Part shown: positions 24,518-44,259 of the stretch, piece by piece
How positions within the stretch are numbered: the stretch's first letter is position 1
Layout of the letters: each line of letters starts with the position of its first letter
From: Fibrobacter sp.
GTDB lineage: Bacteria > Fibrobacterota > Chitinivibrionia > Chitinivibrionales > Chitinispirillaceae
Direction: 5' to 3'
Length of the DNA: 44,259 nucleotides
NCBI GenBank assembly: GCA_012523595.1
Contig: JAAYIG010000255.1
Span: 1 to 44,259, forward strand
Program-made: the position numbers and the translations under genes
Notes under the pieces: model-generated
What the model saw: only the letters and a program-made list of their open reading frames with translations
Databases searched by the model: none
What the model was told of the DNA's origin: nothing

Positions 24518-26731
24518 ATGAGTGAAAATTCCTGTCAAAGTGCATCGGAATATTTAGAAGAGCTGTCGGCAGCCTTTGTCCTGACTGATCCGACAAATCT
24601 TCAGGCACTGGCTGATCTGCACACCAGGTTTGAGAATATCTCCGGTTTTAATGTAGATAAGAAGATCCGCGACAGAGGTTCTCAGGGTGCCGCTCTTCTG
24701 GAAAAAATAATCCTGAACGAAACACCTGATTCATCAGTTGCAATGAAAACCCTCTCAGATATGATTTCTGAAATGAGACAGCTTATCCGGACAGATCCCG
24801 GGAGAGATTCAACTGAGGATACTTCCATTTTTCAAGGAAATCCGGATGAAGCCGGTGCAGAGGGTGCAACTAGTGAAATCAATAACACTGAAAAACCGGA
24901 AGAGGAAAAAGCCATAGAGCCTGCCCCCCCCCTTGAAGTAGACCTGTCAACCATTGACGGATCTCTGCTGGGTGATTTTATTTCCGAATCTGAAGAACAT
25001 CTCCACAATGCAGATAACTACCTTCTGCAACTGGAATCAACTGCTGATATCGAGAATATTAACGCACTGTTCAGGGTTTTTCACACCATCAAAGGCATAG
25101 CAGGATTCCTCTCCCTGTACTCTATTCAGAAGCTGGCCCACTCAACAGAGAATCTTCTTGACAAAGTGCGCAAAAACGAATGCCCGGTCAGCGGGCATCT
25201 TGTTGATCTGGTGTTCTCGGCTGCGGATGCACTCAAGCTGGAAATCGGTTCCCTTCGGAAAGCCCTGAGTTCAGATTCCAGGTACATCGTGAATAACGAA
25301 GTAGGATCTCTGATAAATGAACTGGACACTTTTGCTGAAAAGTCCGGTGCCCGCAAGATAGGTGAGATTCTGATAGACGAGGGCAAAACTACCCATTCTG
25401 AGCTGGAGAAGGCTCTATCCATACAACATGAGAATCCGGAAGCGAAAATCGGGGAAATTCTTGTTCAACAGGGTTCTGTTCGTCCCAGGGATGTAAATGA
25501 AGCGCTTGCTGTACAGCAGGGGAAACACAAAACAGTCTTTGTAAAAGAGTCAATAAAAGTCGATACTGAAAAGCTTGACAAACTGGTTAACACAATCGGT
25601 GAACTTGTCATTACAGAGGCGATGGTAACCGGTAATGAGGCTCTCCGGAGAAATGCTTCAACCGAAGTATTAAGAAACATACGCCTTCTTGATAAAATAA
25701 CCAGACAGCTTCAGGAGATCGGGCTTTCAATGCGCATGATTTCACTGAAATCGACATTCCAGAAAATGGCCAGACTGTCACGGGATCTGGCTAAAAAAGC
25801 CGGAAAGGAGATTAATTTCATCACCGCCGGAGAAGACACAGAGCTTGATAAAATAGTAGTTGAAAAAATCGGTGATCCGCTTGTACACATGGTAAGAAAC
25901 GCTGCAGATCATGGACTGGAAACCCCGCAGGAGCGCCTGGCAGCCGGAAAACCGGCGGCAGGTACGATTTCTCTTCGTGCTTATCAGAAAGGGGGAAGTA
26001 TCTGTATCGAACTGGAGGATGACGGTAGAGGACTCGACAGAAAGGCTATTATAAACAAGGCATTGAAACAGGGAATAATAGAGGAAGGTGAAAACATCTC
26101 CGAGCAGGAAGTCTATCACCTGGTTTTCAAGCCCGGCTTCTCCACTGCCAAAACTGTCACCGATATCTCCGGCAGAGGTGTTGGAATGGATGTAGTAAAA
26201 AAGAGTGTCGAGGCTCTGAGGGGGCATATTGAGATCAAAACTGAACAGGGAAAAGGAACACTTTTTACAATACACCTTCCTCTTACAATGGCAATTATGG
26301 ACGGCATGGTTGTCAGGGTAAATAATGAACGATACATTGTGCCTACTCTTTCAGTAATAGAGAGTTTCCGTCCGCGTAAAGAGGATATTTCCTGTATTGT
26401 AAACAAGGGTGAAGTGGTCAACACTCATGGAGAATTGATCCCTCTGATTCATCTTGCAGCCATTTTCAATGTAAACGGTGCCATAGAAAATCCAGAAAAT
26501 GGGATTGTTGTAGTACTGAAGGACATGGGAAAACGCATGGGACTTCTGGTCGATTCTATTCTGGGACAGCAGCAGACTGTCATAAAAAAAGTCGGTGATG
26601 GAATCGGCAAAATCAAAGGTGTATCAGGTGCAGCCATAATGCCAGACGGACGTATCAGCCTGATTCTGGATGTCTCCGGGATAATACGTATGTCAATGGG
26701 AACGGAGAAAAACCCATATTTAAAAGGTTGA
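24518..26731 (+). CDS. cheA: Chemotaxis histidine kinase CheA with MshEN-like module
   Basis: 737 residues. An N-terminal helical part (1-95) and acidic linker precede the HPt domain (about 147-250) with phospho-acceptor His189 in VFHTIKG. Residues about 279-333 hold two 31-residue-spaced repeats of KIGEIL..(E/Q)G......(L/V)..AL..Q, the pattern of MshEN/GspE-N modules that bind c-di-GMP in type II secretion and MSHA ATPases. The dimerisation helices follow (about 345-415, DKLVNTIGELVI), then the kinase domain (HMVRNAADHGLE N-box, DDGRG, GRGVGMDVVKK) and a C-terminal CheW-like domain (about 595-730). A P2 CheY-binding domain is not obvious. A nine-C run encodes part of the acidic linker. Confidence 0.95.
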   Translation: MSENSCQSASEYLEELSAAFVLTDPTNLQALADLHTRFENISGFNVDKKIRDRGSQGAALLEKIILNETPDSSVAMKTLSDMISEMRQLIRTDPGRDSTEDTSIFQGNPDEAGAEGATSEINNTEKPEEEKAIEPAPPLEVDLSTIDGSLLGDFISESEEHLHNADNYLLQLESTADIENINALFRVFHTIKGIAGFLSLYSIQKLAHSTENLLDKVRKNECPVSGHLVDLVFSAADALKLEIGSLRKALSSDSRYIVNNEVGSLINELDTFAEKSGARKIGEILIDEGKTTHSELEKALSIQHENPEAKIGEILVQQGSVRPRDVNEALAVQQGKHKTVFVKESIKVDTEKLDKLVNTIGELVITEAMVTGNEALRRNASTEVLRNIRLLDKITRQLQEIGLSMRMISLKSTFQKMARLSRDLAKKAGKEINFITAGEDTELDKIVVEKIGDPLVHMVRNAADHGLETPQERLAAGKPAAGTISLRAYQKGGSICIELEDDGRGLDRKAIINKALKQGIIEEGENISEQEVYHLVFKPGFSTAKTVTDISGRGVGMDVVKKSVEALRGHIEIKTEQGKGTLFTIHLPLTMAIMDGMVVRVNNERYIVPTLSVIESFRPRKEDISCIVNKGEVVNTHGELIPLIHLAAIFNVNGAIENPENGIVVVLKDMGKRMGLLVDSILGQQQTVIKKVGDGIGKIKGVSGAAIMPDGRISLILDVSGIIRMSMGTEKNPYLKG

Positions 26732-26786
26732 AACGGAAAATTAAATTCAGGGTGAAAAATCACCAACATTCGAGTGTAAGACAATA

Positions 26787-27305
26787 ATGGAAGCTGTTCA
26801 TAGAGAGACTTATTACCTGCATCCCGGATATATTTACATTTCAAGACAGCAGGAGACCATACAGACTGTTCTTGGCAGTTGTGTAGCAGTTTGTTTATGG
26901 GATCAGAGCCAGAAATGCGGCGGCATGAACCATTTCCTGTATCCTGTAACCAGAGAAGCTGCAAATGCAACTCCCCGATTTGGAAATGTAGCGATTCTGA
27001 CATTAATAAAGATGATGAATGAGGAAGGCTGCAAAAGTGAAGATCTGAAGGCCCATATTCTTGGCGGCGGCCATCCGGAGGGAGTAACCGGGGAGAACCT
27101 TGGAGATCAGAATGTAAAGATTGCACGTGAGATTCTCAAGAACAAAGGAATCTCGATCATAGCCGAGGATGCAGGCGGAAGTGTGGGCCGTAAGATAGCT
27201 TTTGATGTAATTACAGGACATGTGGCAGTTCTTAAAGTGCACAAGGTAAGAAAAGAAGACTGGCATACAGAGGAATACATGAAAACTCCTTATGAAGGGA
27301 GATGA
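26787..27305 (+). CDS. cheD: Chemoreceptor glutamine deamidase CheD (first copy)
   Basis: 172 residues. The CheD signature TVLGSCVAVCLWD contains the catalytic Cys32, and GGMNHFLYP contains His49, at the 17-residue separation known from Thermotoga CheD (Cys27, His44). CheD deamidates glutamines in methyl-accepting chemotaxis proteins and interacts with the CheC/CheX/FliY phosphatase family. It begins 55 bases after cheA. The C-terminal part (ILGGGHPEGVTGENLG, then EDAGGSVGRKIAFDV) matches the family. Confidence 0.92.
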   Translation: MEAVHRETYYLHPGYIYISRQQETIQTVLGSCVAVCLWDQSQKCGGMNHFLYPVTREAANATPRFGNVAILTLIKMMNEEGCKSEDLKAHILGGGHPEGVTGENLGDQNVKIAREILKNKGISIIAEDAGGSVGRKIAFDVITGHVAVLKVHKVRKEDWHTEEYMKTPYEGR

Positions 27306-27813
27306 GGGGTTCACATTGCCGGAGAACACTAAACGCTCAAATCTGATAGTAGGAATTTCCGATATGGTAATTTCTACTGATCCTTCTACACTACTTACCA
27401 CCTATTCACTTGGCTCCTGCCTTGGGCTCACTGTATACGATCCTGTTGCTCTTATCGGCGGGATGATTCACTGTATGCTGCCGTTATCAAGTTTAGATCC
27501 GGCAAAAGCCAGAGAAAAACCCACGATGTTTGTGGATGTAGGTGTACCGGCACTCTTTGCGGCTTTTTTCAAAGCCGGAGGGAGCAGATCACGAATGATT
27601 GTAAAGGCAGCAGGATGCGCTCAGATACTCGATCCAAGCGGTCACTTCAGAATCGGAGAAAGGAATAAACTCGTGCTTAATAAGCTTCTCACTAAAAACA
27701 ACATAGAACTTACTTCCCAGTCCACAGGCGGTTCGGTTTCACGTACAATGCAGCTTGAGATAAGTACCGGACGAACAACCATCAAATCACCCGGAATAGT
27801 GGTTGAGATTTGA
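27292..27813 (+). CDS. cheD: Chemoreceptor glutamine deamidase CheD (second copy)
   Basis: 173 residues. Cys43 in YSLGSCLGLTVYD and His60 in GGMIHCMLP keep the CheD catalytic pair with the same 17-residue separation; Thr37, six residues before the Cys, matches the third catalytic position. It shares the fold but little sequence with the preceding copy, so the two are old paralogues. The start ATG overlaps the upstream cheD by 14 bases, implying coupled translation. The pair may deamidate different receptors, or one may be mainly a CheX partner. Confidence 0.9.
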   Translation: MKGDEGFTLPENTKRSNLIVGISDMVISTDPSTLLTTYSLGSCLGLTVYDPVALIGGMIHCMLPLSSLDPAKAREKPTMFVDVGVPALFAAFFKAGGSRSRMIVKAAGCAQILDPSGHFRIGERNKLVLNKLLTKNNIELTSQSTGGSVSRTMQLEISTGRTTIKSPGIVVEI

Positions 27814-27942
27814 TCAGCCGGCGCCTGGAACGCAAAGAGGGACTCCAATCTGACAAAACCCCTGGAGGTATTTCTCTATTTTGTTTTTTTCAGACACTTA
27901 TCCCTTACCAATAGAATTTGCCGACATCTACACAATTGTTGC

Positions 27943-27971
27943 TTGACAATGATTTGTTTCTGCGATAGAAT
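27943..27971 (+). promoter_or_regulatory. Sigma-70 promoter P1 upstream of cheW
   Basis: TTGACA (27943-27948), 17 bases, TAGAAT (27966-27971). It lies in the 405-base gap between cheD and cheW (27814-28218), which holds no gene that can be supported. Confidence 0.7.
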
Positions 27972-28023
27972 GTTTTTCTGTTAGTTAATGAATCATCAGG
28001 AGTTTTCAAAGCCTGATTTCATC

Positions 28024-28052
28024 TTGACTTGCAACCTGTGAAGGGGTATAAT
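28024..28052 (+). promoter_or_regulatory. Sigma-70 promoter P2 upstream of cheW
   Basis: TTGACT (28024-28029), 17 bases, TATAAT (28047-28052), 81 bases downstream of P1 in the same orientation. The leader would be about 160 bases. Confidence 0.75.
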
Positions 28053-28218
28053 CTTAATATTATTTACGTGTTTGTTGTCTTATTTGATATGAAATATGGA
28101 TCAATTACCGGAAACCGGCAAGAATCATCAGACCCCGTAAACAACCCCATCAAAAAAAGTTCTGATCTGATTTCTGCGAAACTGTTATCCTTTACTAATA
28201 ATCATCAGAGGAGAAAAG

Positions 28219-28737
28219 ATGGCTGAATCTGGCCAGTTAGCAAATGACATAAGCGGGCTCGCAGGTAAATATCTCACTTTCCGACTTCAAAATGAAGAGT
28301 ACGGACTGGAGATACTCAAGGTGAGGGAAATCATTGGTATGATGTCAATAACCAGGATACCCCGTACACCTGAATTTGTGCGGGGAGTGATTAACCTCCG
28401 CGGCAAAGTCATACCGGTTATTGATCTGCGTAAAAAATTCGGAATGGAAGACATCGCTGACACAGAAGAAACATGTATCATTGTTGTTGATGTAAAGCAT
28501 GGCACAGATACCCTGCAGATAGGTATTCTTGTCGATTCAGTATCTGAGGTGCTGGATATAAAGGTCGATAATATCGAGGGTACGCCGTCTTTTGGAACAA
28601 ATCTGGATACTGATTTTATCCTGGGTATGGCAAAAGCGAAGGGATCTGTTAAAATTCTGCTGAATATCGAGCGGGTTCTTTCCCGCAGTGAATTGACAGC
28701 GGTTTCCGGAACTCTATCTGAAGATGAAAACAAATAG
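28219..28737 (+). CDS. cheW: Chemotaxis coupling protein CheW
   Basis: 172 residues, a single CheW domain: [50 protein letters not shown], and [23 protein letters not shown], each matching the family in order. It bridges receptors and CheA. A strong GAGGAG ribosome-binding site precedes the ATG. First gene of the cheW-mcp-cheR-cheB-cheX-cheY group, with two promoters upstream. Unlike the CZB version at the start of the locus it is unmodified. Confidence 0.95.
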
Positions 28738-28760
28738 AAACATTTACAAGGGGTATTAAA

Positions 28761-30743
28761 ATGCTGAACAGATTGAAGATTGGGCAGAAATTAATCACCG
28801 GTTTTATGGTCATGGCTTTACTTTCAGGAATAATAGGTTTTACCGGATATCTGGCCATCAGGGATCTTGGCAACTTTCGTCTTCCCGGTATCGAATCGCT
28901 CTCTACAATTAAAGAGTGCCTCAACAGGGTGATTACCGGAGAAAGAGGACTCTTAATATCGATGATTTTTGAGGATGAATCCTTGCGAACGGAACAATAT
29001 GACTGGATTAGTAAAGCATTCGAAGAGGCGGAAGTCTGGTATAAAAAATATGATAAGATGAAAAAGACCAGAGAAGATGCAGAATTATGGAATAATTTTA
29101 GGCAGAAATGGGAAGAGTGGAAGACACAGCATTCAGATTTCATGAATGCTGCGAAAGCTAAAGAATCTGCAATGAACATTAAAAATGATTCTCTTACAGA
29201 GCTCTACGATGAGGAAATGGACCTTAGAAGCCTCCAGTCCCGTAAAGGTTTCTATGCTGCATACGACGTACTCAGCAAACTGGTTGATTTGAATTCAGAG
29301 ATGGCTCAGAGTACCGCATATAAAACCAGAATGTTCATGCTCATTATCAGTCTTCTGGGTCTAATCCTGGCAATTACAATCGGCCTGTCCTTTTCAAAGT
29401 CCATTACAAACCCCCTTTCCCGCACCGTTACAATGATCCAGGAGATGGGGAAAGGACACCTGGATATGAGGCTGAAGATAGATCGTGGGGATGAGATAGG
29501 CATAATGGCAGACACTTTGGATGCATTCGCAAATGATCTTCAGAGCACGGTTATCGGCAGCATGAAAAAGATTGCCGATGGAGACCTGAATCTCAATATA
29601 GTCCCCAAAGATGACAAGGATGAAATCTCTCCGGCATTGAAACAGACAGTTGAGACCCTGAGAAGTCTTATCATAGAAGACGGTGGTGTAGTGCTGCAGG
29701 CTGCAGCAAATAAAGACCTTTCAAAACGACTGCATAAGACATACAGCGGTGATTTTGAAAAGATGAAAAGCAACATCAACACTGTAATAGAAAACCTCGA
29801 ACTGGCTGTAAACCAGGTTTCTGAAGCAGTGGAGCAGGTCACGGCAGCAAGCGGCCAGATCTCAAGCGGATCTCAGAGTCTCGCAGAAGGCGCTAACGAA
29901 CAGGCAAGCTCCCTGGAAGAGATTTCCTCTTCACTGGAAGAAATGTCCTCCATGACAAAGCAGAATGCTGAAAACGCCACTCAGGCAAGAAATCTTGCAG
30001 GTGAAGCAAAGCTGTCTGCTAACGAAGGCAATGACGCAATGGTGCACATGTCAAATGCCATTGAAAAGATCAAGGTATCATCTGATAACACAGCAAAAAT
30101 CATCAAGACAATTGACGAAATCGCTTTTCAGACAAACCTTCTCGCTCTCAATGCAGCCGTTGAAGCTGCACGGGCGGGTGAAGCAGGTAAAGGGTTTGCC
30201 GTTGTGGCAGAGGAAGTCAGAAATCTGGCTATGAGAAGTGCCGAGGCAGCAAAGAATACTGCCAATATGATAGAGGAATCAGTAAAGAATGCCGAGGGTG
30301 GTGTAAAGATAACCGAGGATGTGGCGGAGATTCTCAATCAGATAGTTGATCGTACAAATAAAGTAAATGATCTGATCGCCGAGATTGCAGCAGCCAGCAA
30401 CGAACAGTCTCAGGGCATTGAACAGATCAATACTGCTGTAGCACAGATGAATAAGGTCACACAGGCCAACGCATCCAATTCCGAAGAGTCAGCCAGTGCC
30501 GCTGAAGAGCTCAGTAATCAGGCAGAGGAACTGGCTATCATGGTCGGTGCGTTCAAGACATCTGACTCGGAAAACAGAATCCAGAACACAAAAACCAGAC
30601 TTGTTTCTCAGCAATATGTCGCCGCTTTGCCGGAAAGCAAAGCTCAATCAGTAATACCCAGAATGACTCCACGGGGAAGCAGTAAAGCGGTTCACCCGGA
30701 AGAGATAATTCCATTGAATGAGGACGAACTGAAGGAGTTTTAA
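28761..30743 (+). CDS. Methyl-accepting chemotaxis protein with multiple HAMP-like units
   Basis: 660 residues. Membrane helix 1 is at about 12-33; a periplasmic four-helix-bundle-type sensor (about 34-187) contains [12 protein letters not shown], typical of the MCP four-helix family; helix 2 is at about 190-211. A HAMP domain follows (about 212-262, ITNPLSRTV ... [10 protein letters not shown]), then one or two further HAMP-like units (263-350, e.g. [14 protein letters not shown]). The cytoplasmic signalling domain has the conserved tip [20 protein letters not shown] at about 451-470. Heptad helices carry Q/E-rich methylation sites for CheR/CheB/CheD. No terminal NWETF-type CheR tether is seen. 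It lies between cheW and cheR. Confidence 0.95.
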
Positions 30744-30803
30744 ACCGGTCAGGGAAACACATGACAAGATAATACCAAAAAGTGTAAAGTTTCTTTAGAG
30801 TAA

Positions 30804-31610
30804 ATGGACAAAAAAACATTCGATGAATTCCGGCGCGTAGTCTATGAGAAAAGCGGCATTACCCTGCATGAGGGCAAGGAGGCTCTTGTTGCTGCAAGAA
30901 CAGGTAAGCGCATGCGTGCACTTGGAATAGAAAATCACAGACAATACCTTGATTATATACTTCATGACCGGACCGGATCTGAAGTGATTCAACTGCTGGA
31001 TGTGATTTCTACCAATGTAACCCATTTTTTCAGGGAATCTACGCATTTCAATTTTCTGGGACAGCAGCTTGGAATTCTTATATCATCTGGGCAGAACAAA
31101 ATCAGAATCTGGTGTGCAGCAAGTTCAAGCGGTGAAGAGCCATACAGCATTGCAATGACATTCCTGGAAAACTGCAACGGGTTCAGAGGCGACATGCGCA
31201 TACTTGCTACAGATATCTCTACAAAAGTGCTCACAACCGCCATAAGGGGTTTTTACTCCAAAGAAAAAACCAAAGATATTCCGCCACTTCTAAAGGACCG
31301 ATATTTCGAGCCTGCCAAAGTGGATAATACAGATGGTTACCTGGTACGGAAAAGTGTCAGAGATATGATAACCTTTTCACGTCTGAATCTCTCTGCCCCG
31401 CCATTTCCCATGCACGGCCCGTTTGACTTTATCTTCTGCCGCAATGTCATGATCTACTTTGACAATGAAGTGCGAAGAAAGCTGATTGTGGAGATTCACA
31501 GACTTCTTAAACCGGGAGGATTCCTGATCGTGGGGCATGCAGAGAGTCTGACTGGTTTTCAAACACAATTAAAGAGTGTTAAACCTTCTGTTTATATCAA
31601 GGAGAAATAG
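30804..31610 (+). CDS. cheR: Chemotaxis protein methyltransferase CheR
   Basis: 268 residues. N-terminal CheR helical domain (YEKSGITLHEGKEALVAART), then the SAM-dependent methyltransferase domain: NVTHFFRES, the SAM-binding WCAASSSGEEPYSIAM (103-118), ILATDIST, and FIFCRNVMIYFDNEVRRKL. It methylates receptor glutamates with SAM. It lies 60 bases after the receptor gene and 58 before cheB. Confidence 0.96.
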   Translation: MDKKTFDEFRRVVYEKSGITLHEGKEALVAARTGKRMRALGIENHRQYLDYILHDRTGSEVIQLLDVISTNVTHFFRESTHFNFLGQQLGILISSGQNKIRIWCAASSSGEEPYSIAMTFLENCNGFRGDMRILATDISTKVLTTAIRGFYSKEKTKDIPPLLKDRYFEPAKVDNTDGYLVRKSVRDMITFSRLNLSAPPFPMHGPFDFIFCRNVMIYFDNEVRRKLIVEIHRLLKPGGFLIVGHAESLTGFQTQLKSVKPSVYIKEK

Positions 31611-31668
31611 AGTACTGCGGCCCATCATGAGTAATATTTTGAACTGAGCATTTATGGAAAAGGCGTAA

Positions 31669-32697
<1,029 letters not shown>

Positions 32698-32759
32698 AAG
32701 TATGATATGATAGATAACTGATTGAGAATTACCACTTATAAAGAAAGAGAGGCAGCATA

Positions 32760-33218
32760 GTGGATGTCCGTTATGTAAATCCATTCATTCTTTCAACAAT
32801 TGAGACATTCAATATTATGCTCAAGCTCAAAGTCACTCCGGGTAAACCGCAGCTGAAAATGGACCCTTTCCCGACACATGATATCTCCGGTATTATCGGA
32901 ATATCAGGAGACGCTGTTGGTACTATAGCCATCAGCTATCCAAGAATTGTCGCACTGAAGACAGTATCCAGATTTCTTGATGCTGAATTCAAAATTTTTG
33001 ACTATGCTGTCACGGATGCAATTGGTGAGATCACCAATATCATAGCCGGAAGCGCAAAAAAGGATCTTGGCGGACTGAATGTCCAGATATCTCTTCCCAA
33101 TGTGGTGATCGGAAGAAACCACAGGCTGGTAGGTCCTAAAAACGCGCAGAATATTCTGGTACCGCTTCAGTCTGAACTTGGTTCAATGTACCTTGAGGTA
33201 AGCTTGAAAACACCCTGA
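32760..33218 (+). CDS. cheX: CheY-P phosphatase CheX
   Basis: 152 residues, typical length. The diagnostic CheX/CheC helix DAIGEITNIIAGSAKK carries Glu90 and Asn93, the residues that dephosphorylate CheY-P, and ISGDAVGTIAISY and SELGSMYLEVSL match the flanking strands. The start is GTG at 32760 with GAGAGG upstream. It is the only CheY phosphatase visible here: no CheZ or CheC. CheX acts as a dimer in Borrelia and Thermotoga. Confidence 0.9.
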   Translation: MDVRYVNPFILSTIETFNIMLKLKVTPGKPQLKMDPFPTHDISGIIGISGDAVGTIAISYPRIVALKTVSRFLDAEFKIFDYAVTDAIGEITNIIAGSAKKDLGGLNVQISLPNVVIGRNHRLVGPKNAQNILVPLQSELGSMYLEVSLKTP

Positions 33219-33258
33219 ACAATTATAAATATTTGCAATTTAAAAGGAATGTGATTGT

Positions 33259-33627
33259 ATGACAAACATTATGCTCGTAGATGACTCAACCACACTCAGG
33301 CGTATTCAGCGGAACATCATCGAAAAACTCATGTCATGTACAATTGTCGAAGCCTCAGACGGTAAAGACGCAATAGAAAAGCTTAAAAACTTCAAGCCGG
33401 ATTTGTTTTTCCTTGATGTAAACATGCCGAATATGGATGGAATCAGTCTACTTAAACACCTCCGGAGCAACGCACAATACGCAAGTTCCAAAATTGTGAT
33501 GTGCACAAGTGAATCAGAAAAAACAAAAATAATCGAGACAATCAAACTAGGAGCAAACAGTTATATAGTGAAGCCATTCTCTCCTGAGACACTTGAGCAG
33601 AAACTTAAAGATCTCAAGGTTATCTGA
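33259..33627 (+). CDS. cheY: Chemotaxis response regulator CheY
   Basis: 122 residues, a single receiver domain. Asp8 and Asp9, the phosphorylated Asp53 (FFLDVNMPNMDG), Thr83 and Lys105 (VKPF) are all in place. It carries the signal from CheA to the flagellar switch. It follows cheX by 40 bases and ends the chemotaxis locus. No terminator hairpin is evident after it. Confidence 0.93.
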   Translation: MTNIMLVDDSTTLRRIQRNIIEKLMSCTIVEASDGKDAIEKLKNFKPDLFFLDVNMPNMDGISLLKHLRSNAQYASSKIVMCTSESEKTKIIETIKLGANSYIVKPFSPETLEQKLKDLKVI

Positions 33628-34846: not shown

Positions 34847-35680
34847 ATGATTCATGAAATTTCTCCGCACCGATTCAACAACCATTATCTCCCGGGAAGA
34901 AAAATTGGAGAGGAAGACTTTATTCTTCACTATGAAGGAAGTTCAGTTTTGCTTAAATCCATCGATGAAAACCTGGAACTTCCACGGAAAAAGGATTTCC
35001 CGGAGATTTCGGATAAAACAGAAACCGTGTTCCTTTTTACATTTGATGACATTCCGTGTTTTCTTGTATGGGATCACCTTCAGACAGACAGTCCTTCTTT
35101 GATTTACAAAGAATTAATTTTTTTCCGGACCACCAGGCAGCAGGAGATTGCATGGATCACTCTGGCGGGATTCCATCTTATGAACTGGTACTCACAAAAC
35201 AGATTCTGCGGAAAGTGTGGAGCAAGAACGCAGTTGAAATCCGATGAAAGGGCCGTGATCTGTCCGGAATGCAGCACAGTCGTTTACCCCAGGATCTCTC
35301 CTGCAGTAATCGTGGCAATCATCTGTAATGATAAAATTCTTCTTGCACGTGGTTCAAAATCTCCTGGAAACAGGTATTCCCTTATTGCAGGATATGTCGA
35401 TGTCGGCGAAACGCTCGAGGAAGCAGTGGCGCGCGAGGTAAAAGAGGAAGTAGGGCTGGATGTAAAAAATATCCGTTATTACAAAAACCAACCATGGCCG
35501 CTTTCCGGTTCAATGATGATAGGGTTTATCGCTGAAGCCGATGATACCCAACCTGTTTTAATTGATGAGGAAGAGATTTCTGAGGCGGCATGGTTTACCA
35601 GAGGAAATCTCCCGGAGCACTCTTTCACTATTAGTATTGCTGGAGAGATGATTGACAGGTTTGATAGAATGCAATTGTGA
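34847..35680 (+). CDS. nudC: NAD+/NADH pyrophosphatase (Nudix)
   Basis: 277 residues. A zinc ribbon with Cys121, Cys124, Cys139 and Cys142, a Nudix box from Gly182 to Leu204 (G-x5-E-x7-R-E-V-K-E-E-x-G-L), and the NudC-specific motif NQPWPLSGS at 214-222 (canonical SQPWPFPxS). It hydrolyses NADH/NAD+ and removes NAD caps from RNA. Its stop is 26 bases from the end of the convergent envelope operon. Confidence 0.95.
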   Translation: MIHEISPHRFNNHYLPGRKIGEEDFILHYEGSSVLLKSIDENLELPRKKDFPEISDKTETVFLFTFDDIPCFLVWDHLQTDSPSLIYKELIFFRTTRQQEIAWITLAGFHLMNWYSQNRFCGKCGARTQLKSDERAVICPECSTVVYPRISPAVIVAIICNDKILLARGSKSPGNRYSLIAGYVDVGETLEEAVAREVKEEVGLDVKNIRYYKNQPWPLSGSMMIGFIAEADDTQPVLIDEEEISEAAWFTRGNLPEHSFTISIAGEMIDRFDRMQL

Positions 35681-35705: not shown

Positions 35706-37523
35706 TCAGTTCAACACCATCTCATCACTGGATATTTCCAGAAGATCAGGTTCAACATTAAACAGATATTTCACCAGTTCCTGGTTTTCAGCCTGAAGGC
35801 GTACCGCAAAACGAAAATAACCTGCTCCATCAGAGAATTTTGAACTGACATCCTTGATAAAAATTGATTTTTCCGACAATAAATATCTGCTCAGTCTATC
35901 TGCAAAAGCGACATCCCCTTTCAATCTCACCAAAAGGAAATTCGCAGCACTTCTATACACTTTGTCCACGTATGGAACCGAGGAGAGAGCAGCAGCAAAT
36001 TCAGTCCGGTCACTGATTGTCTGTTCAAAAGAACTGTTCAAAGCGATTCTGTGTTTTAAAATCAGTTCCAGATAGTGTTCTGCGATGGAGTTCATATTCC
36101 AGATTGGAATGTTCTGTTTTACATAGGAATTCATTTCCTGGTTACAGCAATAAAAATAACCCAGCCGGATCCCAGGTACACCCAGAGATTTGCTTAAACT
36201 TTTGATAACCATTATGTTTGGCAGAGGCTTCTTTTCCAATAATGTGACAACAGATGGAACTCCTGAGAATTCAATAAACGATTCATCAACCAGCACCTTT
36301 TTCTGAGGAAACCTGGCAGCAAATGAATAGATCCATTCGGTATCAAGAAGGGTTCCGGTTGGATTGTTCGGATTTACAAAGGTAATACACTCTGCATTTA
36401 TTGCTTTCTGCTCGATTTCATCAACATCAAAATCGCCATCATCTTTGTAAGTATCGAAATTGTTGAATATTCTGCTGTATTCACCAAAACTGGGATAAGG
36501 GATAAGTGCAGGAGAACTGCCGAACTTAGATCCAAGAATCGGATAGATCTGCGATGCCCCATTGAGTGCAGTCACTCTCTTTTCATCGCACAAAAGAAAC
36601 CATGCCATTTTTCTGTCAAGAAGTTCCTGCCGTGACCCGTAATTGTGCATAAGATCTGTAAGCACGTTTTTCATCTCTGAAATTATCGAAGCATTGGGGA
36701 AATGCATGTTCCGGATAAAACAGAAATCTGTAAAATGGTAATTCCAGTATCCACCAAAAGCGTGTTCAAGAATCTCTTTCCGGTTTTCATTAAAGTCAAA
36801 CTCGGCAACCTGCAGATCGTTTGGATCATCTACTTCAGACCAATTCTCCCCCTGCACTATTTCTGCATGTATCGTTTCTCTTTGCATGTAAATTAAAATG
36901 CCAAGGATCAGTTCATAATAGCAGTTACGGTCAATTACATTGGCATAATAGATAAGCAGTTTCTTGAAAGAAGTATTGCAAAATTCCATGGAAAATTTGT
37001 AAATATTAAGCGTCTTGTATTTATCAGAAAAATCGAAGGATTCTGACTGCAGATGAGGCGGGATAACGTTTGTAATCACCGAATTCTCAACAGTAACCAC
37101 AGTCCCATCCATACCGATTCTGTATTTATCAACCAGTGCAGCATTTTTGTATGGTGAATTTATCAACCTCCTGATAACTTCAGGTTGGTAGAGCAGATCA
37201 GATTCGATCAGTATAATATCGCTGTCAATATTTATGTGCTCAAAGGCAAGTGCCATAGAGTAAATGTTGTTCGTTTCGCGGTATTTTGAATTATGTATAA
37301 ATTGAAAGGACAATTGCGGGTAACACTCACGCAGATAAGCCGTCAATTCATCAGCTCTGTAGCCGGTAACCACCACAATATCTACGATACCGTTCTCAAC
37401 CAGCCCGTCAATAATTCTGCAGATAATAGTTTTTCCTGCAACCTTCAGCATTGTTTTATGGCAGGAATCTGTCAAGGGTCGCATTCTGTTTCCATATCCG
37501 GCTGCCAGTATTATCGCTTTCAT
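35706..37523 (-). CDS. Cytidylyltransferase-like / PLP aminotransferase-like fusion
   Basis: 605 residues. Residues 1-245 are a sugar-/choline-phosphate nucleotidyltransferase: AIILAAGYGNRMRPLT at the P-loop-like start, GYRADEL, ETNNIYSM, a LicC/PntC-like signature, and ENWSEVDDPNDL at the end. Residues about 250-590 are a fold-type I PLP enzyme of the HisC/CobD kind: NPNNPTGT (384-391), VDESF (Asp413) and Lys445 in SLSKSLGVPGIRLG. Related architecture is known in PntC-AEP transaminase proteins of Treponema, but that aminotransferase is class V-like. A CDP-activated amino-alcohol or aminophosphonate is a plausible product. It is the last gene of the envelope operon. Confidence 0.85.
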   Translation of the reverse strand: MKAIILAAGYGNRMRPLTDSCHKTMLKVAGKTIICRIIDGLVENGIVDIVVVTGYRADELTAYLRECYPQLSFQFIHNSKYRETNNIYSMALAFEHINIDSDIILIESDLLYQPEVIRRLINSPYKNAALVDKYRIGMDGTVVTVENSVITNVIPPHLQSESFDFSDKYKTLNIYKFSMEFCNTSFKKLLIYYANVIDRNCYYELILGILIYMQRETIHAEIVQGENWSEVDDPNDLQVAEFDFNENRKEILEHAFGGYWNYHFTDFCFIRNMHFPNASIISEMKNVLTDLMHNYGSRQELLDRKMAWFLLCDEKRVTALNGASQIYPILGSKFGSSPALIPYPSFGEYSRIFNNFDTYKDDGDFDVDEIEQKAINAECITFVNPNNPTGTLLDTEWIYSFAARFPQKKVLVDESFIEFSGVPSVVTLLEKKPLPNIMVIKSLSKSLGVPGIRLGYFYCCNQEMNSYVKQNIPIWNMNSIAEHYLELILKHRIALNSSFEQTISDRTEFAAALSSVPYVDKVYRSAANFLLVRLKGDVAFADRLSRYLLSEKSIFIKDVSSKFSDGAGYFRFAVRLQAENQELVKYLFNVEPDLLEISSDEMVLN

Positions 37524-37542
37524 AATCTGCCTTAAAATCCTT

Positions 37543-39084
37543 TCAGTTACCTGCTGAAATTACCGGTTGGGATGGTTTGTCTTTTCCTTTTCCAAACTTT
37601 TGCATTGTGACCTCAAATACAGTGGAAAGAAAAGCCAGTATGTTGTTCATCGTCCAGTAAATAACCATTCCTGCCGGTGATCTGTAAAGTAGAAGAAAAA
37701 ACAGAGCCGCCATCCAATATAGATTTTTCCTCTGCTTTTTCTGAAGAGATCTGGAAAGTGAGGAATCGGCGTGTATCCATGAAGCACCAATTGTAAAAGA
37801 GGTCATTATAAATGGGAGAATATTGAAATACTCACCAAAAAAAGGAATACTGAAGGGAAACTTAAAGAGCTGATCCGGATAAGAGAGATCTTTTATCCAT
37901 AAAAAGGAGGAACAGCTTAAAACAATATGCTCACTTAGCATGTCGTAAGCCGCGAAGAAAACCGGTATCTGAATAGCAGCACTCAGCAGACTCTTCAATG
38001 AATAAAGAGGGCTTATTCCTAGTTCCTTATAAGCTTCCAGAGTTTTTCTTGTCTGCTCCTCACCCTTATACTTTCTTTTTATCTCATCGAGATGCGGCTG
38101 AATCAGTGAGGATTGACGGTTTACCTCCTTTTGCCATCTGTCGGCAATCTTAAAAAGCGGTGCCAGTACAATCTTTACACAAACAGACAATAAAATCAAT
38201 GATATCGGGACACTGTGAAGTATCCTCAACAGGAAGTCAAAAACAAGCAAAAACCCAAAGGATAACCATCTTATCCATGATGGTAAACGATAAAGAAGTC
38301 TGCCAAGCTGCGGGTCGGTTTTTTTAAGTTCTTTGTAAACTATCGGACCATAATAAACTTTCAAGCTGAAAGATTGAGAAGCATCTGAAGGCCCCTCAAT
38401 AATAAATGCACCGTCTTTATGGGATAAGGACAGACTTTTCCCTGCAGATTGAACAAAACAGCCCCAGAATCTGTTGTGAATTCCTGTCCAGTGCTTTTCT
38501 TTTAAAGTGTCGGTGTCCGGTGCTTTTTTCAAGCCGAGGGTTCTGATTTTCTTACCGAAGATTACCAGATCCTCTCCGTCTCTTATACTATCGGGAAAGG
38601 TAACCTGCAATTTAGAGAGATTCTTCGTCGGTACAGCCTCTTTATTCTCACCAATAAATCTGCCCGAGAAAACCAGAGAATAGTTGTTTTTATGGAAAGA
38701 GTATTCTTTTACTACCTGGGCACCTGATGCCAAAGGTGGTGAAAAGAAACTCAAAGAAACAGTTGTATCTGATTCGGATTGATGAAGGATATATGGTGAC
38801 AGCTTATCATTACTGTCTGAAAACAGCTCTTTTCCTGGTTCCATTCTTATTAATGGAACCCCGCCATTCTGAACCTGGAGTTTTTTATCTATTCTGACAA
38901 CATCATAGTAGTTATAGGATAACCCGATGTCAACAAGATCACCATCTGCGGTAAAGCGAATAACCTGATTCTGAATATAGAAAGAGAGCAATGTATCGGA
39001 AAGTAACTCTGTATTTTTTGAAAAAATATCAGCAGGTAAAAATATGAACAGAAGAAGGTATAAAGAGGTGAACCTTTTAAACAT
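37543..39084 (-). CDS. yidC: YidC/Oxa1-family membrane insertase
   Basis: 513 residues. An N-terminal hydrophobic segment precedes a large beta-rich periplasmic P1-like domain (about 25-260). The Oxa1 core follows with YidC features: LLSVCVKIVLAPLF, a charged coiled stretch (LIQPHLDEIKRKYKGEEQTRK), AAIQIPVFFAAYDML, and FLLLYRSPAGMVIYWTMNNI near the end. YidC inserts and folds inner-membrane proteins. The usual rpmH-rnpA-yidC-jag surroundings are absent; instead it is fourth in the envelope operon, which may mean it is a second YidC serving this system. Whether it is the only YidC cannot be told from this window. Confidence 0.85.
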   Translation of the reverse strand: MFKRFTSLYLLLFIFLPADIFSKNTELLSDTLLSFYIQNQVIRFTADGDLVDIGLSYNYYDVVRIDKKLQVQNGGVPLIRMEPGKELFSDSNDKLSPYILHQSESDTTVSLSFFSPPLASGAQVVKEYSFHKNNYSLVFSGRFIGENKEAVPTKNLSKLQVTFPDSIRDGEDLVIFGKKIRTLGLKKAPDTDTLKEKHWTGIHNRFWGCFVQSAGKSLSLSHKDGAFIIEGPSDASQSFSLKVYYGPIVYKELKKTDPQLGRLLYRLPSWIRWLSFGFLLVFDFLLRILHSVPISLILLSVCVKIVLAPLFKIADRWQKEVNRQSSLIQPHLDEIKRKYKGEEQTRKTLEAYKELGISPLYSLKSLLSAAIQIPVFFAAYDMLSEHIVLSCSSFLWIKDLSYPDQLFKFPFSIPFFGEYFNILPFIMTSFTIGASWIHADSSLSRSLQKKQRKNLYWMAALFFLLLYRSPAGMVIYWTMNNILAFLSTVFEVTMQKFGKGKDKPSQPVISAGN

Positions 39085-39102
39085 CGTGTTACTTTCGCAT
39101 GG

Positions 39103-41001
39103 TTACTGTTTAAAAAACCTGCCCACTTCACCTAATGCGGAAACGATATTAGGGCCGATCTGCGGTTTTTTTACGATCTGATATTGTTTGTCTCTGACCT
39201 CATAATATCCTCCCGGGAATTGAACTGTGATCTGGCTTGGCTCTACAATCGCAAAATTGAAATAGCTTCCTGTAAGAATCCACTCCCAGGACTCTTCTGA
39301 AAACAGATTTTTACCTGAACAGTAATCGGATTCCGGATTTTTCACCATGAACACATCTTTCATCAGTGTGGCAACAATATCATAATGAGAAGTCCTTCTC
39401 TCAACAATTCCCTTCGGTTTTCCAGGCCAGATTGTAACAAATGGAGTCCTTATTTGCCAATCACTGAAAGAACTGCCATGCCCGTTGTACCCCAGACCAT
39501 TATCATCAAATTCCTCCCCGTGATCTGAGGTAATAATTACAACAGTGCTCTCCAGTAAACCTCGTCTTGTGAGATCCTCCAGAATCGATTCTACAAGTGA
39601 ATCAGAATATTGAAGACTCACTTTGTATCTGGCAAACTTTTTTTGTGCCTCTGTCATTCCTTTATCATACTGAATTTTGTCTTTATATGCCGGAGGATAA
39701 TTCTCAGTACAGAGTGCATCATAAAACAGGAACCCGAAAAATGGCCGGTCAGTATTTCTGTGGTCCAGCCATTCTTTCCATTGATCAGTGATAGCGGAAT
39801 CATTTCGATAAGCTGCCTGAGGGTCAGGTATCACAGTTTCAAGCCTGAGATTCTCAATTTTTACAAAAGCAGTGATGTCCAGATTTGCCGGAGCATACAA
39901 TTTATAGCTGGTAAAAATCCCTATAGAATAGTTTGTCTGAAGAAGTCTGTCGATAAAAAGCGGAGAGCATTTATTGGATTCCACAAACTGCTGATAGGTT
40001 GGAGGTATTCCATAGAAAATAGAAAACGTCCCCATCTTTGTGGAGTTTCCACCGCTATAATGGTTCCTGAAAATGGTTCCGTTTCTGCTGGCGAAATCAA
40101 AACAGCGCGGTGCATTCACAGGATTCATCATATCGTATCGCATGCCATCAACAGCGATTAATAGTATGTTTTTATCAGGATTTTCAACTGCAAATTCCAG
40201 CGGTTTCTGAGGATAAGCAAACACACTTCCGCTGCTGGTTAATTTCTTAGGAAGTACTCGTCTGTTTGAGATATCAACGAGTCCATGTTTGACCATGAAT
40301 CTTTTACTGGTTGACGGATAAAAAAGCGGCAGTGTAGTGGTAAATCTGGTGATATCCACATACCCTGTAGCATCAGCCCACATGTGAGTAAAATGAGTAA
40401 AGAGCAGAAATACCAGAGTAACCGGCAGACTGACCGAAAGCCAGATCTTTTTGCGGTCAATTACAAAACGATTCCAGCATATTTTAGCCACAAACGAATT
40501 GAACACAGTAAAAATGAACAGATACAGGATTCCAAAACCCCAGGTCTTCCATCCCAGTATCTTTACAGTAAGAAGATTAAAATGGAACCGGTTGGAAGTA
40601 TACACCTGCGCATCAAGAAGTTCGACACACAATACAATGGATGTCAATGCCACACATGCAGGAATTATGAACTTCCGATAAGGCAGAAAAATGATCAACG
40701 GGAAAACAAGAGCTATCCATGCAATGATTGAAAAGGACGCAAAATGGCTGATAAAAGCGGTAAGAGTATAAGCGATGGAGAGAAAATCACCCGGGAATCT
40801 GTACGTAGTGATATAGAGTAAACCAATAAGAAGCGTCAAAACAGCAGTAATGGAAAAGAACCCCGCACTCCATCTGAAAAGTTCCAGACGTCCTTTCATC
40901 TGCCACCATGAACCCTTTAAAAATAACGATGGTTTCTTTTTTACACCTACAGCAATGGCTGATTCAGGCGACGAGCTCTCAGGTAGATTACTGGTTTTCA
41001 T
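39103..41001 (-). CDS. YejM/PbgA-like membrane sulfatase-family protein
   Basis: 632 residues. Five membrane helices (residues about 45-205) are followed by HFTHMWADATGYVDITRF and PLFYPSTSKRFMVKHGLVD, strikingly like the linker of YejM (PbgA/LapC). The alkaline phosphatase/sulfatase fold runs from about 275: VDGMRYD (Asp285), GGNSTKMG (candidate nucleophile Ser320/Thr321), SDHGEEF (Asp493, His494), GHGSS (His508). So the metal-binding set looks complete, whereas characterised YejM is a catalytically inactive or weak regulator of LPS synthesis. Phosphoethanolamine- or glycerolphosphate-type transfer is an alternative. The start overlaps the preceding gene by 14 bases. Confidence 0.85.
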   Translation of the reverse strand: MKTSNLPESSSPESAIAVGVKKKPSLFLKGSWWQMKGRLELFRWSAGFFSITAVLTLLIGLLYITTYRFPGDFLSIAYTLTAFISHFASFSIIAWIALVFPLIIFLPYRKFIIPACVALTSIVLCVELLDAQVYTSNRFHFNLLTVKILGWKTWGFGILYLFIFTVFNSFVAKICWNRFVIDRKKIWLSVSLPVTLVFLLFTHFTHMWADATGYVDITRFTTTLPLFYPSTSKRFMVKHGLVDISNRRVLPKKLTSSGSVFAYPQKPLEFAVENPDKNILLIAVDGMRYDMMNPVNAPRCFDFASRNGTIFRNHYSGGNSTKMGTFSIFYGIPPTYQQFVESNKCSPLFIDRLLQTNYSIGIFTSYKLYAPANLDITAFVKIENLRLETVIPDPQAAYRNDSAITDQWKEWLDHRNTDRPFFGFLFYDALCTENYPPAYKDKIQYDKGMTEAQKKFARYKVSLQYSDSLVESILEDLTRRGLLESTVVIITSDHGEEFDDNGLGYNGHGSSFSDWQIRTPFVTIWPGKPKGIVERRTSHYDIVATLMKDVFMVKNPESDYCSGKNLFSEESWEWILTGSYFNFAIVEPSQITVQFPGGYYEVRDKQYQIVKKPQIGPNIVSALGEVGRFFKQ

Positions 41002-42208
41002 TGTTCCTTACAGTGTTTTGGGAGCCAAGGGTGCCATCGAGTCTTTTTTGCTTCTGCATATCTGCAATTTTCATTATCTCTCTGGCCCCTGTTTCAACAC
41101 TTTTTCCGAAATTAAAAAGGATATTCTCCCGTAAATTGGAAATCTTCTTCTTGAATTGCTCGGGATCAGACAGAAGTTTCTCAATTACAAGTGGCGCTTT
41201 TTCGAGTTCATCCATCTTGAGTACGAATCCCACTTCATTACGGATACTTACCTCCATGGGCTCCAGTCCCAGTTCCTGGTATGAGGGGTTTCTTACTCTA
41301 CGGGGGACATCTATGTATAAAACCGGCTTCTCAAGGCCAAGGGCATATTCAATAGATGTAGATGACCAGTCGCACACCAGGAGATCAGAATCAAAAAGCG
41401 AATCTGTATCACCCATGCGGTTGACATATTTGAGTAAGGGGTTTTGTCCGTAAAGCCTTAAAATCTCTTCCACTACTTTGGGAGTGAGTTTAAGAGTCTG
41501 GTAGTGAGGACGCAGGGTAACCCTGAATCCGGCATTGAGTAAAACACCGACTATTTCTTTACCGCAAAGATTGAGTATCGAATTCTCCCCCCAGGTAGGA
41601 GCCAGCAGGATTGAGTAAGGTTTTTGCGGAGGTTTACACCTTTTGGCAGCTTCATTATAAAGCTCCTCTACCCTGGCATATCCATGAGGAATCAGATTCT
41701 TGGGAGCAAGCCCTTTCATCTGCTCCCGTTTACGGATCTCCCTGATCTGGTGTGGCCCTACACAAAGAATTGTGTCATAGTGATCGTAGGAGTTCTCAAA
41801 ATCAACCATGTGGGTACTGCCCATGGCATGGAACAGATATATGTAATGAACAGGATTGATAGATCGTTTGAGCTGAAAAACGTTCAGATCTATCATGGTC
41901 AGCAAAAGGCTGTCTGCTTTCAGGAACTGAAAGAGCATGATCTGCCAAAAACCAGGTTTAATGTAGAAGGGCATAAACAAGGGATGTTTTTTAGAAAGCC
42001 CCGGATCCAGAGGATCCGAACTGATATAACATACGGATCTGGAATTTGATAACAACTCTTCAATGATCTTACGGAAATGATGCCAGTCCTGGCCGCTTTC
42101 CGAATAGACCACTATGTTGCGTTGATCATCTGTAAGCTTGTTGAATGCCCTGTAATTCTGAAATGATTTAAAAAACAGGCTCAGCGAAAGGAAAGGATTC
42201 TGTTTCAC
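40988..42208 (-). CDS. CDP-glycerol glycerophosphotransferase-like (TagF-family) enzyme
   Basis: 406 residues, with a GTG start. The TagB/TagF fold is shown by FHAMGSTHM (His127), HGYARVEEL (His175), ILLAPTWGE (200-208), RPHYQT (233-238) and DSDLLVCDWSSTSIEYAL (273-290). In teichoic-acid synthesis such enzymes transfer glycerol- or ribitol-phosphate from CDP donors; in diderms they decorate capsules or LPS. It fits the neighbouring cytidylyltransferase, which could supply a CDP donor. The start lacks a strong ribosome-binding site. Second gene of the operon. Confidence 0.85.
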   Translation of the reverse strand: MKQNPFLSLSLFFKSFQNYRAFNKLTDDQRNIVVYSESGQDWHHFRKIIEELLSNSRSVCYISSDPLDPGLSKKHPLFMPFYIKPGFWQIMLFQFLKADSLLLTMIDLNVFQLKRSINPVHYIYLFHAMGSTHMVDFENSYDHYDTILCVGPHQIREIRKREQMKGLAPKNLIPHGYARVEELYNEAAKRCKPPQKPYSILLAPTWGENSILNLCGKEIVGVLLNAGFRVTLRPHYQTLKLTPKVVEEILRLYGQNPLLKYVNRMGDTDSLFDSDLLVCDWSSTSIEYALGLEKPVLYIDVPRRVRNPSYQELGLEPMEVSIRNEVGFVLKMDELEKAPLVIEKLLSDPEQFKKKISNLRENILFNFGKSVETGAREIMKIADMQKQKRLDGTLGSQNTVRNNENQ

Positions 42209-42244
42209 AATCTGCTTTCGAATTATTGTGAATGAGAATAAAAA

Positions 42245-42490
42245 TCAATTTTTCTTTTTAGATTTAAAGAAAGATGCGATTTTAAACCAGAAGGTTTTTA
42301 CTCCGAGAATTATGGTTGCGAAAATCCCCACAATAGCAGAAATTATCATTGTTCCGGTACCCGGATCCAGGTATGCAAAAGAGAACTGGGGGTTTTGCTG
42401 AAGTTCTGGAGTAAAGTATCTGGCCACAACAGTAGCTATCAGCATGAGACTAAAGATATTCAGGCGAAGATATTCCAGCTTTTTTCCCAT
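42245..42490 (-). CDS. Small YLDPGTG-type membrane protein
   Basis: 81 residues with two hydrophobic segments. The central FAYLDPGTGTMIISAIVG and the following KTFWFKI match small membrane proteins found beside sulfatase/phosphatase-like and surface-polymer genes in many bacteria; their function is unknown. It has a strong GGGAGGG ribosome-binding site and is the first gene of the leftward operon, 36 bases before the TagF-like gene. The region 42491-42795 between it and the flavodoxin gene contains no gene that I can support and no convincing promoter pair. Confidence 0.75.
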   Translation of the reverse strand: MGKKLEYLRLNIFSLMLIATVVARYFTPELQQNPQFSFAYLDPGTGTMIISAIVGIFATIILGVKTFWFKIASFFKSKKKN

Positions 42491-43368: not shown

Positions 43369-44259
43369 TTAGAGTTTGAAGAAAGCATCAATCTTACTGG
43401 CGATATCATCACCAGTCAGCATATCATGATCTTCACTCCCTTCACTCTTCGCCTTTTCTTCAGGTTTCTTTTCCTCATCCGCCTGATCTTTTATCTCAAA
43501 GACTTCAATACCCGACTCTTCTTCCTGCAATTCATAAGCAGGACCGATCACCTCACCCCCATGAGACTGCAGTGAGGCTATTTCCTGCTCTGGTTCACCT
43601 CCGACTACCTTTTCTTCGGCTTTTACCTGTGTTACGGTGCCATAATCAGTGTCGGTCTTTTCAGAAATGGAAGCTTCAATCTCTTTAAAGTTATCCTCAA
43701 ACTCGGAAAGTTCAGCCTTTTTTTCAGGCATGCGAAGTTCGCTCGGTAACTCCTGAGGAGAACGAGGAATCCGGCTTATATCCAGATCCATTATTGTTTC
43801 CATTGTGAACTCTTCATCCTCAGATTCCTGCTCACTCTCTATCGGTTCATCAGCAGGGGTTGCAGAGGCCTCCACATCTTGCTGGACTTCATCGATTTTA
43901 CTCTCTTCAGGAACATCCTGAGAGATCTCCGGCTCAGCAGGGATCTCCGCATCAACACCCTCTTCTGACTTTTCCCCCAGAGTTATTTCAACAAATTCCT
44001 GCTCCTCTTCCCCCTCCTCTTTGATCCCATCTTCAACCGCAGATATTTGAGGTTCCTCTTGCTTAGCAGGCTCCTCAACAGCTTCCTCTTCAGGCTCAAA
44101 TTGCAATTCCCAATCAACCGCTTTTACTTCCTCTTCCGGGGCAATCACTGCAGCAGGTGAATCCTGGGCTTCCGCTTTTTCTTCAACCTCAACCGCTTCC
44201 TCTGATTCCTGCTGAACCGGTTCTGATGAGATCTCCTGATCCGGTTCCTGATCCTTAAT
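43369..44259 (-). CDS. Glu-rich acidic protein, N-terminus beyond the window
   Basis: At least 296 codons, open to the window edge (the in-frame GTG at 44148 is internal; the same Glu/Pro/Gln-rich composition continues upstream). The protein is extremely acidic with many EEE/EPE runs, low complexity, and no hydrophobic segment, so it is predicted to be disordered. The last 25 residues (HDMLTGDDIASKIDAFFKL) look like a short helix and could be a binding motif. No function can be assigned. It is followed by a strong terminator. Confidence 0.7.
   Translation of the reverse strand: MKDQEPDQEISSEPVQQESEEAVEVEEKAEAQDSPAAVIAPEEEVKAVDWELQFEPEEEAVEEPAKQEEPQISAVEDGIKEEGEEEQEFVEITLGEKSEEGVDAEIPAEPEISQDVPEESKIDEVQQDVEASATPADEPIESEQESEDEEFTMETIMDLDISRIPRSPQELPSELRMPEKKAELSEFEDNFKEIEASISEKTDTDYGTVTQVKAEEKVVGGEPEQEIASLQSHGGEVIGPAYELQEEESGIEVFEIKDQADEEKKPEEKAKSEGSEDHDMLTGDDIASKIDAFFKL

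Follow-up and report, generated by a model that had tools for sequence, protein, structure and literature searches.

The Lic pathway (LicC, a CTP:phosphocholine cytidylyltransferase, and LicD) and the Pnt pathway share one logic, in which a headgroup is activated with a cytidylyl group. In the latter, PntC, which in Treponema denticola is a fusion of a cytidylyltransferase (CT) with a class V aminotransferase (6PD1), links CMP to a small amine headgroup of the cell surface (PMC6697681). The later steps of phosphonate surface tailoring in bacteria have been termed enigmatic (PMC6697681). The subject here is an operon of five genes in Fibrobacter sp., phylum Fibrobacterota. It lies in a stretch of 44,259 nucleotides, called the window below, which is contig C255 (JAAYIG010000255.1) of genome G000 (GCA_012523595.1; 4.1 Mb, 99.5% complete). 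One gene encodes a fusion of a CT with a pyridoxal phosphate (PLP) enzyme, and the other four recur jointly in other phyla. I propose, with somewhat more confidence than doubt, that the operon encodes a cell-envelope headgroup-tailoring pathway, leading from phosphoserine through CDP-ethanolamine to an envelope lipid or glycan.

The operon and its conservation

All five open reading frames lie on the minus strand and are transcribed from position 42490 down to 35706, in the order small membrane protein, TagF-like transferase, YejM-like protein, YidC paralogue and CT-PLP fusion. The initial annotation had presented them as one operon, and recomputed intergenic distances of 36, -14, 18 and 19 bases reproduce the order and spacing it gave. 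Scans for promoters and terminators returned counts at the level of shuffled sequence (22 vs 18.7 and 8 vs 6.3). Four of the proteins exceed curated Pfam cut-offs, the exception being the small protein. The same genes occur in identical order in four genomes (G048, G024, G074 and G044) of the same family as the window genome and of different genera, so that with the window genome five genera keep the arrangement, at 43-86% protein identity; the relatives that carry the operon are named Fibrobacter sp. and Chitinispirillaceae. An arrangement kept in five genera, four of whose genes recur jointly in other phyla, is not chance. The initial annotation had tied its idea of a single pathway to conservation of the neighborhood, and the shared order and content largely uphold that idea.

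Among 42 genomes, the DUF3413 domain of the YejM-like protein is found in nine and the TagF-like protein in seven, all within those nine, while the YidC paralogue is found in the same nine plus G066. Every one of the nine holds a full-length fusion, of either a close (at least 62%) or a distant (about 34%) type. The hypergeometric value for this co-occurrence, 5e-5, is a guide only, ignoring both shared ancestry and the selection of the set. What comes after the YejM-like gene in three genomes (G054, G068 and G016) is a short YidC, some 230 amino acids long and without the periplasmic domain; in G016 the genes for the small protein and the TagF-like protein are on a separate contig. The distant fusions of Fibrobacter (L042, L045-L051) and G108 adjoin LicD-family transferases and also octopine-dehydrogenase-like or ornithine-cyclodeaminase-like genes. 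These families suggest a context of amine headgroup activation and transfer, possibly following N-carboxyalkylation, whose product may be an N-carboxyalkylated ethanolamine headgroup. The G108 cluster also has genes for phosphoenolpyruvate (PEP) mutase and a thiamine pyrophosphate-dependent decarboxylase.

A transferable module beside phosphonate genes

Outside the Fibrobacterota, the four genes keep different company. With an alignment of the TagF-like protein as query, a scan of 84,980 species genomes yielded 50 loci, in Fibrobacterota, one Desulfobacterales, Rokubacteria and many Gammaproteobacteria. In 48 of them the gene for the small protein precedes the TagF-like gene (37/39 proteobacterial, 6/6 Fibrobacterota and 5/5 Rokubacteria loci). 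After the TagF-like gene come both YejM and YidC in 20 of the 24 proteobacterial loci with enough flanking sequence and in every scorable locus of the Fibrobacterota and Rokubacteria. Where the flank was adequate (30 proteobacterial loci), genes for phosphonopyruvate decarboxylase (PPD) and aminoethylphosphonate (AEP) transaminase (AEPT) are found in 29 and that for PEP mutase in 26. Proteobacterial loci also carry one or two LicC-like or PntC-like nucleotidyltransferases and often a PhyH dioxygenase. At one locus, L089, PEP mutase, PPD and AEPT all score over their NCBIfam equivalog cut-offs. PEP mutase exceeds its cut-off in 32 of the 44 module genomes outside Fibrobacterota, and several of the remainder show fragments of it at contig ends; it does not exceed it in Rokubacteria or in G152.

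Other genes accompany the module in particular groups. In Lysobacterales (e.g. L107:12450-13591), a PhyH dioxygenase and a DUF6165 protein come after the module; the former resembles methylphosphonate hydroxylase, at a score below the cut-off, and may hydroxylate AEP. Rokubacteria loci L085, L096, L105 and L113 have a divergent nucleotidyltransferase and PhyH beside the module, with PPD and AEPT, like PEP mutase, not found nearby. In two module-bearing genomes, G151 and G152, a separate trio (L134 and L135) of HisC-like PLP enzyme, LicC-like cytidylyltransferase and Glyphos_transf enzyme is a counterpart of the fusion plus TagF in which the enzymes are unfused.

Since AEP genes stand beside the module in Proteobacteria and the fusion does so in the window lineage, the module is best read as a headgroup-transfer unit. 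From gene content, the small, TagF-like, YejM-like and YidC proteins would together be transferable, with an exchangeable headgroup supply. For Proteobacteria, the expected donor is CMP-AEP, produced by an enzyme of PntC type (PMC6697681). In the window lineage, the fusion is the only candidate supplier within the operon. PEP mutase (TIGR02320) has no match in G000 or in G048, G024, G074, G044 and G022, the last five each with a listed completeness of at least 90%, and a phosphonate product in the window genome was rejected on that ground. The initial annotation had offered either a CDP-activated amino-alcohol or an aminophosphonate: the families in the fusion support a small amine headgroup linked to CDP or CMP, and the aminophosphonate has no support in the window genome, where no PEP mutase was found. 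The pair of options was nonetheless a good guess, because proteobacterial copies of the module adjoin genes of AEP synthesis. A search for papers that name YejM or YidC as well as phosphonates returned none describing such a gene set, and I met no description of the transfer module in the literature consulted.

The five proteins

The fusion (605 amino acids; 35706..37523, minus strand; NTP_transf_3 and Aminotran_1_2) is encoded by the last gene. Its residues 1-245 form a PntC/LicC-like CT and residues from about 250 to 605 a PLP domain like those of CobD and SMUL_1544. By profile, the CT half scores 156 bits with T. denticola PntC and 98 bits with LicC (1JYK). Its E107 sits at the position of PntC Glu104, where LicC has Asp; Glu104 is positioned for binding the AEP primary amine (PMC6697681). 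The second amine residue of PntC, Glu196, is without clear counterpart, the profile alignment setting E204 of the fusion opposite Glu194. From the nucleotidyltransferase consensus GXG(T/S)RX4-8PK (R15 and K25 in T. denticola), the Arg and Lys are present as R13 and K23, invariant across 18 sequences, and the window CT deviates in having N for T/S and H for P. Nearness to PntC and the Glu at the Glu104 position bear only indirectly on specificity for CTP and headgroup.

The PLP half scores 151.5 bits with the CobD model TIGR01140 and 129.3 bits with the HisC model TIGR01141, far below the respective equivalog cut-offs of 290.55 and 276.55; it is a relative of CobD and is not filed as CobD. Its top PDB match is 6OUX, a 'threonine phosphate decarboxylase-like enzyme', which is the product name of SMUL_1544, followed by one HisC-named entry and two CobD-type decarboxylases. 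Keller et al. are said to have found in 2016 that SMUL_1544 uses L-serine-P as substrate. In Campylobacter jejuni, Cj1436 decarboxylates L-serine-P to ethanolamine-P, and Cj1437 makes (S)-serinol-P from dihydroxyacetone phosphate by transamination (PMC11800397). From these matches, decarboxylation of a phospho-amino acid is a more probable activity for the PLP half than transamination. Of the fusion of cytidylyltransferase and aminotransferase originally described, the cytidylyltransferase and the PLP fold are supported, and the aminotransferase is changed to a more probable decarboxylase, with CobD outscoring HisC and 6OUX ranking first.

The TagF-like transferase (406 amino acids, GTG start; 40988..42208, minus strand) passes the PF04464 (Glyphos_transf) cut-off of 22.1 bits marginally, at 26.4. 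Its homologues are 44-85% identical across phyla, and 46 positions are invariant in 37 sequences, including H127, H133, R233-P234-H235 and W281-S282; TagF needs two histidines of this kind. The AF2 model (pLDDT 90.7) has the GT-B fold and matches TagF 3L7I (Z 18.9 over 343 residues) and TarL 8VA1 (Z 18.7) in structure searches (Foldseek/VIA), which agrees with the TagF-like label first given to the protein, although UDP-GlcNAc 2-epimerases (Z about 20) and other GT-B enzymes tie with TagF in this comparison. In a tree, the five fusion-linked sequences cluster with others from Fibrobacterota, and the nearest outsiders are one PEP-mutase-linked sequence and one from Desulfobacterales.

The YejM-like protein (632 amino acids; 39103..41001, minus strand) joins a DUF3413 membrane domain (PF11893, 132.8 bits) to a domain of alkaline-phosphatase/sulfatase fold (PF00884, Sulfatase, 115.8 bits) and aligns full-length with Escherichia coli YejM (5I5H), in support of the YejM-like label of the initial annotation. 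Its score with the LapC/YejM model NF038282, 257.7 bits, is far under the cut-off of 825. In an alignment of 35 sequences, the metal-site residues D285, D493, H494 and H508 are at least 95% conserved, with S/T at 321, whereas E. coli YejM carries R451 where EptA and LtaS have His. Such a complete site suggests an active transferase or hydrolase. Weak Mg-dependent phosphatase activity has been reported for the E. coli protein (PMC7576196), which, as YejM/LapC, is needed for LpxC regulation (PMC7730581). The intact metal site was also considered as a module-specific trait and rejected, since unlinked copies in Lysobacterales share the motif.

The YidC/Oxa1-family paralogue (513 amino acids; 37543..39084, minus strand; PF02096, 60KD_IMP, 102.3 bits against a cut-off of 35) is the second copy in the genome, the canonical one being on contig C32 near an mnmG-like gene. 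By genome it co-occurs with the YejM-like gene, and the dedicated YidC of the initial annotation holds to that extent, as an extra copy tied to that gene. At the groove position, located by eye, the window paralogue has Lys and most relatives have Lys, Asn or Gly, as against Arg in the canonical G000 copy; I take the position of the groove Arg to be functionally important. With the groove residue altered, the insertion of membrane parts that the initial annotation suggested for this YidC is tentative. Insertases of the YidC superfamily are reported to scramble lipids (PMC10491306), and for that reason a flipping role for the paralogue merits testing. A role as insertase for the small membrane protein is equally open. 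The latter (81 amino acids; 42245..42490, minus strand), encoded by the first gene, has the motif AYLDPGTGxMIISAIVGI and no match in Pfam or NCBIfam.

A proposed pathway and its rivals

The presence of LpxC in the window genome makes an LPS outer membrane likely. The genomes with the operon have no phosphatidylserine (PS) decarboxylase, and therefore transfer of phosphoethanolamine from conventionally made phosphatidylethanolamine (PE) looks unavailable to them. Nearly the entire order around the window is without PS decarboxylase. The fusion as a general compensation for that loss was rejected, most of the order lacking the decarboxylase with or without the fusion.

To the observed homologies, conservation and phosphonate association I add presumed substrates, an acceptor and roles for YejM, YidC and the small protein. 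The first step would be decarboxylation of O-phospho-L-serine to phosphoethanolamine by the PLP domain of the fusion; the CT domain, whose family is clear, would convert the product to CDP-ethanolamine. The TagF-like enzyme, whose family and GT-B fold are clear, would then take phosphoethanolamine off CMP and attach it, on the cytoplasmic face, to a membrane-linked hydroxyl. The YejM-like protein, with its EptA/LtaS-like complete metal site, would perform a periplasmic step, most likely passing the headgroup to its final acceptor, and the small membrane protein and YidC paralogue may aid assembly or flipping. The same module would be fed by CMP-AEP in Proteobacteria and by the C-O-P analogue from the fusion in this lineage of Fibrobacterota. 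Phosphoethanolamine is the oxygen analogue of AEP, and CDP-ethanolamine would therefore fit the same transferase. The system is real and widely conserved. Its chemistry is plausible, the exchange of suppliers constraining it well, and the mechanism is offered as a proposal. A more particular version strikes me as rather unlikely: that the module is a novel type of machine for lipid headgroups, in which the TagF-like enzyme directly makes an aminoethyl-phospho(no)lipid from the CMP-headgroup, replacing, in this bacterial order, PE made by PS decarboxylase, with the altered-groove YidC flipping it and the YejM-like protein handing the headgroup to a periplasmic acceptor.

Several observations weigh against the phosphoethanolamine pathway. 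Two or three CDP-alcohol phosphatidyltransferases in each operon genome make another route to PE possible. The CobD and HisC scores are near enough to each other that the PLP half may be a transaminase, and the predicted structure of the fusion, from an alignment of five sequences, has a pLDDT of 50.1, too low for comparing pockets. G022 keeps the first four genes as a group and has the fusion on a separate contig. G050 and G064 have the fusion and no TagF-like protein, YejM or YidC paralogue, so the fusion can serve some other process. The module of Rokubacteria has no PEP mutase nearby. Finally, some Lysobacterales modules do not include YejM in the operon, and the sole copy in the genome, with an identical complete motif, is elsewhere; YejM may for this reason have wider duties.

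An alternative view is that the pathway is the same and the headgroup another. If the PLP domain works as a transaminase, or has threonine-P as its substrate, the intermediate would be serinol-phosphate or 1-amino-2-propanol-phosphate and the donor CDP-serinol or CDP-aminopropanol. I regard this as a real though clearly lesser possibility. The PLP half does match both models, Cj1437 shows that (S)-serinol-P can be made by such a transamination, and the Desulfobacterales genome with the module has a clearly HisC-like PLP gene beside cytidylyltransferase-like and Glyphos_transf genes. Against it are the ranking of PDB matches, with SMUL_1544 on top and CobD-type decarboxylases following the HisC-named entry, and the swap with AEP genes, which favors a headgroup shaped like AEP.

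It is harder to believe that there is no single pathway and that the YejM-like, YidC and TagF-like proteins serve LPS quality control, merely co-transcribed with the fusion. The duty of YejM/LapC in E. coli and the separations of fusion and module in G022, G050 and G064 speak for this. However, LpxC is present in 24 of 24 genomes tested and DUF3413 in only nine of 42, each of the nine with the full-length fusion, and the module is repeatedly linked to headgroup-activation genes in distant phyla. Least probable is a phosphonate pathway in which the fusion makes CMP-AEP or the like, with genes for the C-P bond elsewhere or absent from the assembly: the CT half is nearest to PntC and the relatives of the module are phosphonate-linked, but no PEP mutase was found in six genomes of at least 90% completeness.

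Neighboring genes

Downstream of the operon, a gene for an NAD(+) diphosphatase (NudC-type Nudix; 34847-35680) is convergent with the fusion gene, and an ordinary chemotaxis run (CheA-like kinase, MCP, CheR-like, CheB-like, CheX and CheY-like) occupies 24518-33627 on the plus strand. A very acidic, Glu-rich open reading frame at 43369-44259, without a family match, is open at the end of the window.

Comparison with known systems

The CT most similar to that of the window is that of T. denticola PntC, which is also joined to a PLP enzyme, the two proteins being similar in size, and proteobacterial versions of the module share PEP mutase, PPD, AEPT and PntC-like genes with the Pnt pathway. The window fusion differs in that its PLP domain is of class I/II and CobD-like rather than class V, and its genome has no PEP mutase; the PntC paper makes no mention of YidC, a sulfatase or a glycerophosphotransferase (PMC6697681). 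The CT is homologous to that of the Lic pathway as well, but the window operon has no LicD, Glu replaces the LicC Asp near the amine, and the source of the headgroup is apparently an amino-acid phosphate, not choline taken up from outside. Cj1436, Cj1437 and SMUL_1544, PLP enzymes like the second half of the fusion, are not joined to a cytidylyltransferase and serve capsule amidation or norcobamide synthesis.

The transfer proteins have relatives at a greater distance. The TagF-like protein shares the Glyphos_transf family and GT-B fold with the teichoic-acid transferases TagF and TarL, but the sequence match is very weak, the host is Gram-negative, as judged by LpxC, and the operon has no teichoic-acid genes. 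The YejM-like protein has the full-length architecture of E. coli YejM/PbgA/LapC, DUF3413 plus hydrolase, with Asp-His where the latter has Gly-Arg. The system thus supplies a YejM relative whose metal site is intact, and an extra YidC in a defined context; both can help to show what these families are capable of beyond E. coli.

The system is a variant of the headgroup-tailoring logic of Lic and Pnt, and its new part is the transfer module, a candidate for the missing set of phosphonate transferases in Gammaproteobacteria. With the natural swap, on one transfer module, of a C-P supply (PEP mutase, PPD and AEPT) for the C-O-P supply predicted for the fusion, headgroup specificity can be put to a direct test. 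Exchange of suppliers on four shared attachment genes points to a common surface-tailoring machine across phyla, distinct from those described.

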